The notes below the pieces were generated by a model. That model made no database searches, was not told the origin of the DNA, and worked only from the letters and a program-made list of their open reading frames with translations. Shown here piece by piece: positions 52,360 through 64,000 of a stretch of 64,000 nucleotides of DNA; position 1 is the first letter of the stretch, and each line of letters opens with the position of its first letter. Source of the DNA: Terriglobales bacterium (GTDB lineage: Bacteria > Acidobacteriota > Terriglobia > Terriglobales > Acidobacteriaceae); the NCBI GenBank assembly GCA_025934735.1, contig JAICWP010000021.1:1-64000 (forward strand), given 5' to 3'. A program made the translations under genes and the position numbers.

Positions 52360-52860
52360 ATGCCCGCATTGGCGGTGGGTGCCATGGCGCCCGATTTCGA
52401 GCTGTCGGGAGTGATAGGGGAGCAGCCGCACCGCTTCCGCCTCAGCGACTATCGCGGCAAAAAGCACGTGGTATTGGCATTCCATCCCCTGGACTGGACC
52501 CCCACCTGAGCCGCCCAGGTGCCGTCGTTCCATGCCGAACTGGCAAGGTTCGCCGGCCTGGATGCCCAGGTCGTGGGCATCAGCAACGATCCCATTCCCT
52601 GCCACATCGCATGGCAGAAGAAGGACATCGGCATGGTGGACTTTCCGCTGTGCAGTGATTTCTATCCCCACGGCGAGGTGGCCCGCAAGTACGGAATCTT
52701 GCGCGAGGGGCCGCCCATCGCCGGCATCAACGAGCGCTGCGTTTTCATTGTGGATAAGGGCGGGCGTATCGCCTTCAGCCGCGTCTATCCTCTTGACGAG
52801 ACGCCTGAGATCCCGGAGTTGCTGGACGTGCTGCGCAAGATGCAGGAATCGGCCGCATAA
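52360..52860 (+). CDS. Selenocysteine-containing peroxiredoxin (UGA at the peroxidatic position)
   Basis: AhpC/TSA-fold peroxidase of 166 residues if UGA at 52507-52509 is read as selenocysteine (residue 50). Upstream sequence runs APDFELSGVIGEQPHRF, LSDYRGKKHVVLAFHPLDW and TPT. Downstream it continues AAQVPSFHAELARFAGL, VVGISNDPIPCHIAWQKKD, FPLCSDFYPHGEVARKYGIL and CVFIVDKGGRIAF. Cysteine peroxiredoxins have Cys exactly at the UGA (PLDWTPxC). There is no frameshift and the frame is otherwise open. GGGAGG four bases before ATG 52360 is strong. A standard gene caller would split or truncate it. A cysteine (C80) in the PCHxAW segment might resolve the selenenic acid (inference). Confidence 0.88.
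52530..52548 (+). promoter_or_regulatory. Candidate bacterial SECIS element (Sec-peroxiredoxin)
   Basis: Stem UGCC/GGCA (52533-52536 with 52542-52545) carries the five-base loop GAACU, which begins 27 nt after the UGA. The stem extends through an A-A mismatch to CC/GG. A stem-loop in this distance range with G in the first two loop positions is the general bacterial SECIS pattern. Recognition by SelB is inferred. Confidence 0.55.
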
Positions 52861-62812: not shown

Positions 62813-63274
62813 TTACGAACTGCCCTTCAGCGCCGCCAGCACTTCCTCGGCGTGGCCTTCCGCCTTCACCTTGTGAAACACACGGGCAATCTTCCCGTCC
62901 GGCCCAATGACGAAGGTGGTGCGTTCAATTCCCATCACCTTCTTGCCGTACATGTTCTTTTCCTTCATTACGCCGAAGGCATTGGCCATCTTCTTGTCGC
63001 TATCAGAAAGCAGGGTGTAAGGCAGATCGTATTTCTGCTCGAATTTCTTTTGCCGCTCCGGCGCGTCGGCGGAGATGCCCAGAATCACGGCGCCGGTCTT
63101 CTGCAGCTTGCTGTATGCGTCGCGGAACCCGCACGCTTCTATGGTTCAGCCGGGCGTGTCGGCCTTGGGAAAGAAGAACAACACGACGGTCTTGCCCCGC
63201 AGCTCCTTCAGCGACACCATCTTGCCGTTCTGGTCAGGTAAACTGAACTCAGGCGCTTTATCACCCATTTCCAT
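62813..63274 (-). CDS. bcp: Selenocysteine-containing Bcp-type peroxiredoxin (UGA at the peroxidatic position)
   Basis: Thioredoxin-dependent thiol peroxidase of 153 residues if UGA at 63148-63146 is read as selenocysteine (residue 43). Before it lie MGDKAPEFSLPDQNGKMVSL and VVLFFFPKADTPG. After it lie TIEACGFRDAYSKLQKTGAV, GISADAPERQKKFEQKYDLP and RTTFVIGPDGKIARVFHKV. In Cys-type Bcp the motif is TPGCTxEAC; here the first Cys is UGA, and the second (C48) is kept as the likely resolving residue. GGAGAG precedes the ATG at 63274. The 3' part alone would look like a truncated gene. Confidence 0.9.
63117..63136 (-). promoter_or_regulatory. Candidate bacterial SECIS element (Sec-Bcp)
   Basis: On the minus strand GCGU-GCGG-GUU-CCGC-G-ACGC: eight base pairs with one bulged G, and a GUU loop beginning 17 nt after the UGA. 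The distance, the G at loop position one and the stem of more than three pairs fit the general bacterial SECIS pattern. Confidence 0.6.
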
Positions 63275-64000
63275 GCTTTGCTCTCCAATCCGCCATTTAT
63301 ACCGCAGGGCTGCCGCGGCCGTCATCTGCGGCCTGCTGAGCTTCGCCTGGGCCTCGCCGGCGTGGGCGCAATATGGCCGGCGGCCGCGCGTCTCCAAGGG
63401 CCCTCGAGCCACCGGCATCGTGCAGCTGCAGGGCAAGCGCGCGCGCCTTATTCCCCTGGTGATCATGATCAACGGCCAGTTCTACGACGCCAGCATCTAT
63501 CGCGCCGATCCCCGGCCCATGGCGCTGGATCCGGGCGTGGTTTACGAAGCCGAGCGCAGCGGCACGTCCGTGGGCCTGTTCACCGTGGGCAATGCCCTGC
63601 AGCTGAACAATAACTGGTATGGGGTAGGACACTGGGAAACTGACGAGGAAATTCAGCAGGCCAAGCAGGCGCGTAGCAAAGAGGAGGAGCAGGCGAAGGC
63701 CGCCCAGCGAGCATCGGCGCGGGCCGAGGATTCCGGGCCGCCGGTCCTGCGCCGCCCCGGCAACGAGAAACCTCCCGCGCCCAATCCGCCGCCGTCCAGC
63801 ACGCCTCCGGCCCAGAAACCCGCTCCGGCGCCTCCCGCCCCAGCGCCTCCGCAGCAGACAGCCAAGGCCACTCCAAGCACCCCATCGCCAGCGCCCGCTT
63901 CCAGCGGCAGCCCTGACGACTACGACCCTAACCGGCCGGTTCTGCGCCGCGGCGCTCCGGCAGCGACTTCGCAGGAGGAGACCTGGCCAGCCGAGCTGGT
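63273..64000 (+). CDS. Secreted proline-rich protein, partial (runs off the window)
   Basis: Open to the window end with no stop; at least 242 residues. An N-terminal basic signal peptide (RHLYRRAAAAVICGLLSFAW, then ASPAWAQ) is followed by a small folded part (LIPLVIMINGQFYDASIYRA, AERSGTSVGLFTVGNALQLN). A long Pro/Ala/Lys-rich region follows, with a motif seen twice (PPVLRRPG and DPNRPVLRRG). Unknown function; a periplasmic or surface protein is likely. The ATG at 63273 overlaps the divergent bcp start within one CATG, so either start might need revision. Confidence 0.75.
   Translation, partial: MLCSPIRHLYRRAAAAVICGLLSFAWASPAWAQYGRRPRVSKGPRATGIVQLQGKRARLIPLVIMINGQFYDASIYRADPRPMALDPGVVYEAERSGTSVGLFTVGNALQLNNNWYGVGHWETDEEIQQAKQARSKEEEQAKAAQRASARAEDSGPPVLRRPGNEKPPAPNPPPSSTPPAQKPAPAPPAPAPPQQTAKATPSTPSPAPASSGSPDDYDPNRPVLRRGAPAATSQEETWPAEL

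Follow-up and report, generated by a model that had tools for sequence, protein, structure and literature searches.

The founding work on peroxiredoxins with selenocysteine (Sec), or Sec-Prx, is reportedly that of Soehling et al. in 2001. In peroxiredoxins of the E. coli Bcp type, the resolving cysteine stands five residues after the peroxidatic one; in the protein analysed here this place is taken by Cys48, putatively the nearest thiol, as in a 2-Cys Bcp. The Prx selenoprotein family appears in a table of PMC9312934 as COG1225, Bcp, with the motif TxxU, and the class to which our gene belongs is therefore not new. A count given in PMC5029168 comprises 91 Prx selenoproteins in 78 organisms, and Prx with TxxU are named in PMC2398784 among the main marine selenoproteins. 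For the Acidobacteria, 4 selenoproteins were counted in 2006 (PMC1794560), and 3 are listed in Occallatibacter riparius (PMC12013277).

Here we analyse a gene from the window, by which we mean the whole stretch of 64,000 nucleotides under study, that is, as judged from its sequence, a real selenoprotein gene of the known Sec-Prx family (COG1225/Bcp type), here assigned to this genome for the first time. We consider it highly probable that its product is a selenocysteine-containing Bcp/PrxQ peroxiredoxin of a soil Acidobacteriota bacterium, of Terriglobales type as judged by its nearest named relatives, with Sec inserted via SelB and a hairpin located just after the UGA codon (Table 1). The comparison with the described Sec-Prx of COG1225 gives both likenesses and differences: (i) the family is the same, Sec stands at the peroxidatic position, and TPGU is a case of TxxU; (ii) unlike in the described cases, the host is an acidobacterium carrying several more TGA-bearing Trx-fold genes; (iii) in the relatives of the window gene the resolving Cys is often lost, of which we found no description in the literature searched. 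What is new, as far as that literature tells, is the pattern of Sec and Cys48 in these relatives.

Table 1. Positions of the features discussed, numbered from the first nucleotide of the window
Feature	Coordinates	Strand	Remarks
Bcp/PrxQ-type peroxiredoxin CDS	62813..63274	minus	153 residues counting U43; range includes the stop TAA
UGA codon, predicted Sec43, peroxidatic position of TPGCT	63146..63148	minus	column is TGA or Cys in homologues
Cys48 codon TGC, putative resolving cysteine	63131..63133	minus	inside 5' arm of the hairpin
Putative bacterial SECIS hairpin GCGU-GCGG-GUU-CCGC-G-ACGC	63117..63136	minus	loop GUU at 63128-63126
GGAG, likely ribosome-binding site	63283..63286	minus	8 nt before ATG; read from sequence
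Second putative Sec peroxiredoxin, AhpC-TSA family, WTPTU	52360..52860	plus	TGA at 52507-52509

The bcp frame runs from its ATG to a terminal TAA with a single in-frame TGA, which sits exactly at the Cys of TPGCT, as an earlier note on this DNA had proposed; the translation around it (TPG-U43-TIEAC48) agrees as well with the claim of that note that C48 is retained. The protein matches the NCBIfam family NF006960, thioredoxin-dependent thiol peroxidase (PRK09437), with 173 bits (cut-off 140), and Pfam AhpC-TSA with 145.8 bits, and two relatives of solved structure, 5enu (AhpC/TSA, E 1e-38) and 5iph (Bcp, E 2e-36), stand among its best matches. Thus NF006960 is the same family, from which the window protein differs in having Sec for the peroxidatic Cys, and NF040737 (peroxi_PrxU), whose name suggests a Sec form, is a different Prx subfamily (45.8 bits, below the curated cut-off of 270). 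By these tests the window protein is a member of the Bcp/AhpC-TSA family, with a UGA in the peroxidatic column where homologues have Cys, in a Sec-decoding genome; C48 stands at +5, the place of the resolving Cys in the atypical 2-Cys PrxQ, and may have that part here.

Homologues came from two partly overlapping sets of genomes. A search of the order produced a bcp match in 298/298 genomes, with best matches listed for 149 of the 298, and among these 149 the Bcp is of the Sec type in 53 and of the Cys type in 96; the codon was read in 53/53 Sec genomes and in 55/96 Cys genomes, the remaining 41 being scored as Cys because they show no stop. The second set came from named genomes, which were scanned for relatives; 155 were found, and the 80 best of these were used. 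By title, these 80 are 79 Acidobacteria (Terriglobales, Bryobacterales and alike, including Candidatus Sulfotelmatobacter and Candidatus Korobacter) and one Krumholzibacteriia bacterium. The pool of 189 loci comprises 172 distinct genes, in which column 43 reads TGA in 72, TGC or TGT in 100 and any other codon in none. No second stop was found in the 153 aligned codons of the Sec genes (72/72), and the stop seen at column 150 in three Cys genes is their normal end. TGA at column 43 is far from chance: across the 172 distinct genes Cys and Sec alternate at this column with no random stops, which is the outcome that the comparison of orthologues proposed in the earlier note was meant to look for. 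Two groups of apparent anomalies were rejected. A double recoding had seemed to occur in genomes G144 and G042 ('1 TGA, 1 TAG'), where the TAG of the G144 gene, L025, is an ordinary terminal stop. Five genomes of genus g15 (G062, G128, G220, G214 and G250), flagged as having TGA and no strong tRNA-Sec, have TGC at column 43 and are therefore not counter-examples.

This alternation bears directly on the most trivial explanation, namely that an ordinary Cys Bcp gene has acquired the TGA by a nonsense mutation or shows it through a sequencing error. Indeed, a single base separates TGC from TGA, and many relatives do have the Cys form; however, a TGA shared at one column by so many distinct genes, with no other stop along the frame, already refutes this possibility. 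In addition, a hairpin accompanies the TGA, and in the 94 codons downstream of the hairpin the window gene differs from its nearest relative, L020, by 43 silent and 14 amino-acid changes, so that the codons after the TGA are, by this comparison, under protein-level constraint. We give mutation or error a negligible probability.

The genome to which the window belongs (4.94 Mb, 99.8% complete) contains the Sec pathway: a tRNA-Sec with anticodon TCA (UCA), at 70.6 bits over a gathering score of 47 and with ARAGORN in agreement, SelB (351.5 bits, cut-off 242), SelA (554.4 bits, cut-off 268) and SelD (365.9 bits, cut-off 125), the selD gene having one in-frame TGA of its own, at residue 11 of the region matched. 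The objection that the organism might lack the Sec machinery, raised in the earlier note against its own proposal, thus fails, and the Sec decoding that it had claimed for this organism is supported by the pathway genes together with the Cys/Sec alternation at one column.

The same markers were followed across the order. As the tRNA-Sec and SelB models also match at low scores in non-Sec genomes, only matches over the cut-off were counted and, for the tRNA, only those of the upper group; a strong tRNA-Sec is one of 62 bits or more, a line set by eye after the scores had been seen. Among the matches listed, a strong tRNA-Sec is present in 47/53 order genomes with a Sec-Bcp vs 47/96 with a Cys-Bcp (Fisher p 1e-6). 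The six Sec-Bcp genomes without it (G100, G188, G262, G249, G260 and G187) all have SelB over the cut-off, so the tRNA-Sec gene is probably absent from the assembly or was missed by the filter; of seven Cys-Bcp genomes without a strong tRNA-Sec tested alongside, none has SelB over the cut-off. Hence all 53 order genomes whose Bcp reads TGA, among the matches listed, have a strong tRNA-Sec or SelB. Genome G203 has two strong tRNA-Sec matches, at C1:5127276 and C1:401231 (72.4 and 62.5 bits).

Could the UGA be recoded in another way, a near-cognate or suppressor tRNA inserting Cys or Trp, for instance? The counterpart residue in the homologues is Cys, and the Sec machinery could serve other genes only. 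Against this, the sole tRNA with a UCA anticodon among those found in the tRNA searches made here is tRNA-Sec, the tRNA-Trp within the window has the anticodon CCA, tRNA-Sec or SelB accompanies the Sec-Bcp in every order genome listed, and a SECIS-like hairpin follows the UGA. We therefore judge such a recoding very improbable.

The hairpin itself had been drawn in the earlier note as starting nine bases after the UGA, with its loop 17 nt downstream, and it folds precisely so in the minimum-energy structure. Its stem consists of 4+4 base pairs and a single bulged G; folded alone it gives -11.5 kcal/mol, and when the 42 nt past the UGA are folded together it lies within the structure of minimum energy, the whole of which gives -11.7 kcal/mol. 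The bacterial SECIS model described in PMC13188914 has a loop of 3-9 nt with a G in the first two loop positions (legend of its Fig 2), a stem of 4-16 bp, a distance from UGA to loop of 16-37 nt and an MFE of -7.5 or lower, and the window hairpin agrees with each criterion of that paper that we looked at (GUU; 8 bp, one bulge; 17 nt; -11.5). A search against Rfam with E values as high as 10 gave no match at the window hairpin.

For a comparison across genes, we used the local hairpin energy with the loop forced at the canonical place. Its median is -11.2 kcal/mol in the Sec genes (n=72) vs -5.05 in the Cys genes (n=100), with p 5e-17; in an earlier set, comprising the 72 Sec genes and the first 62 Cys genes, the medians were -11.2 and -4.65 kcal/mol. 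A hairpin of -5 kcal/mol or better occurs at this place in 65/72 Sec and 52/100 Cys genes, and one reaching -7.5 kcal/mol in 55/72 Sec and 16/100 Cys genes, so that 17/72 Sec genes fall short of the latter value. Comparison with synonymous recodings gave a modest effect. The plain test on the whole 42-nt fold discriminates weakly (mean z -0.65, 5/72 Sec genes), and for that reason a loop-placed test was used, which was chosen after the whole-fold result had been seen and separates Sec from Cys genes better: its mean z is -1.23 for the 72 Sec genes vs -0.17 for 62 Cys genes, with p of 0.05 or less in 11/72 Sec genes taken one by one.

These results must be set against the possibility that Sec is inserted but that the hairpin drawn is not the element needed by SelB. 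The codon-shuffle tests are weak for individual genes, and in seven of the 72 Sec genes the hairpin at the canonical place is weaker than -5 kcal/mol (L058, L065, L075, L080, L143, L157 and L168). Five of these belong to a clade of six Sec genes, completed by L074, in which the canonical hairpin is weak in 5/6, and 6/6 form a longer and stronger stem further downstream (-13.9 to -16.5 kcal/mol over 45 nt), the loop of which lies about 26 nt past the UGA. In this clade the SECIS has possibly moved; the Cys gene L047, outside the clade, folds similarly, so the downstream stem alone is no proof of Sec. Yet the window hairpin agrees with the published model on all counts, most Sec genes have a hairpin of at least -5 kcal/mol at the usual place, and the position of the GUU loop is constant across several stem registers while codon 48 varies. 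These registers are GCGU-GCGG/CCGC-G-ACGC in the window, GCGUC-CGG/CCG-U-GACGC and also CGUC-CGA/UCG-C(or U)-GACG in genes with Ser48, and UCGCGG/CCGCGA in genes with Arg48. Between the window gene and L020, none of the ten codons 44-53, which form the hairpin, has changed (0/10). For these reasons we see only a slight chance that another element serves SelB in the window gene, and we retain the drawn hairpin as its probable SECIS.

From these data we infer both the expression and the catalysis of the window Bcp. The ribosome would meet UGA43, SelB carrying Sec-tRNA(UCA) would bind the hairpin just downstream, and Sec would be inserted at the peroxidatic position. The oxidation of a selenolate by peroxide to a selenenic acid, which is then reduced by a thiol, is established chemistry according to PMC8533274; accordingly worded for this enzyme, the Sec43 selenolate would attack H2O2 or a hydroperoxide, and Cys48 would resolve the selenenic acid, giving a U43-S-C48 selenenylsulfide. 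Thioredoxin, which the name of family NF006960 makes the likely reductant, would finally recycle the enzyme.

The relatives depart from this scheme in one respect. Cys48 is kept in 98/100 Cys genes vs 35/72 Sec genes, and the 37 Sec genes without it have Arg (19), Ser (14) or Asn (4) instead; in 28 of the 37 the aligned protein has no other cysteine. These Cys48-less relatives suggest that Sec43 can be recycled without Cys48; they are probably one-Sec peroxidases for which an external thiol is the direct reductant. In a tree inferred for the 172 genes with codons 43-56 left out, there are at least 16 changes between Sec and Cys and at least 13 changes at Cys48. In 12 independent pairs differing in Sec, on well-supported branches, the Sec member is the one without Cys48 in 8.2 on average, the reverse holds in 0.0 and there is no difference in 3.8 (sign test, median p 0.008, range 0.004-0.008); pairing the other way round gave 10 pairs, with 8.3, 0.1 and 1.7, respectively (median p 0.008, range 0.004-0.04). 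The p of 0.008 is a second look: with 134 genes, the first tree offered too few pairs for a decision (p 0.125), after which 40 loci, one of them a second copy in G211, were added from the stop-free matches listed, favouring genera with both Sec and Cys forms.

Both Cys genes without Cys48 nest inside Sec clades that also lack it. One, L112, has Ser48, lies among Ser48 Sec genes (support 99/93) and retains an intact Sec-type hairpin of -11.6 kcal/mol, a combination which suggests a reversion from Sec to Cys; the other, L150, has Asn48 and lies among the four Asn48 Sec genes (100/97 and 100/99). Two further Cys genes, both with Cys48, stand beside Sec genes: L224 (100/99), with its hairpin intact at -9.6 kcal/mol, and L105 (100/100), with a partly broken stem at -6.1 kcal/mol. 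L112, L224 and L105 look like candidate fossil SECIS left by Sec-to-Cys reversion, and gene transfer or conversion may also be compatible with this single-gene tree. In PMC1794560, five Cys-to-Sec exchanges and no Sec-to-Cys exchange were counted for Prx, and in that 2006 paper the exchange was called mostly unidirectional. In the open-access literature that we searched, we found nothing on Sec-to-Cys reversion in bacterial Prx, nor on Sec linked to the loss of the resolving Cys in Bcp.

Taken jointly, these observations lead us to favour, with some reserve, the following reading for the Bcp of Acidobacteriota: Sec43 would make Cys48 dispensable, and the family would have swung repeatedly between Cys43/Cys48 and Sec43, the latter often with Arg, Ser or Asn48 as a one-Sec peroxidase; the SECIS, which overlaps codon 48, would change register or, in one clade, position; reversions would leave fossil SECIS, and the exchange would run both ways, unlike the mostly one-way pattern of 2006. 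The window gene adds a well-supported Sec peroxiredoxin to a soil phylum rarely met in the selenium literature searched. Its relatives represent a natural experiment, in which a single small enzyme occurs in close Sec and Cys forms, either with the resolving cysteine or lacking it, and therefore permit a direct test of how selenium benefits the enzyme and of whether Sec is lost as easily as it is gained.

The window holds a second peroxiredoxin, of another family and on the opposite strand, in which the same substitution occurs, as had been claimed from the sequence (Table 1). Of 30 loci retrieved for this gene, 28 were read, the window copy and some distant paralogues among them; 20 carry TGA and 8 Cys at its column. 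Elsewhere in this genome, five more Trx-fold genes have an in-frame TGA at the redox site, so that the genome looks rich in selenoproteins: L174 (C17:12920, motif TGGU), L175 (C44:45579, WUPFC), L176 (C38:74637, WUPYC), L179 (C20:94363, TPVU) and L215 (C4:5849, WUPNC). In L176 (C38:74637-74945), a metallo-beta-lactamase-like domain, recognised by eye from NTHYHLDH, is seemingly fused before the Prx-like WUPYC domain that contains the in-frame TGA.
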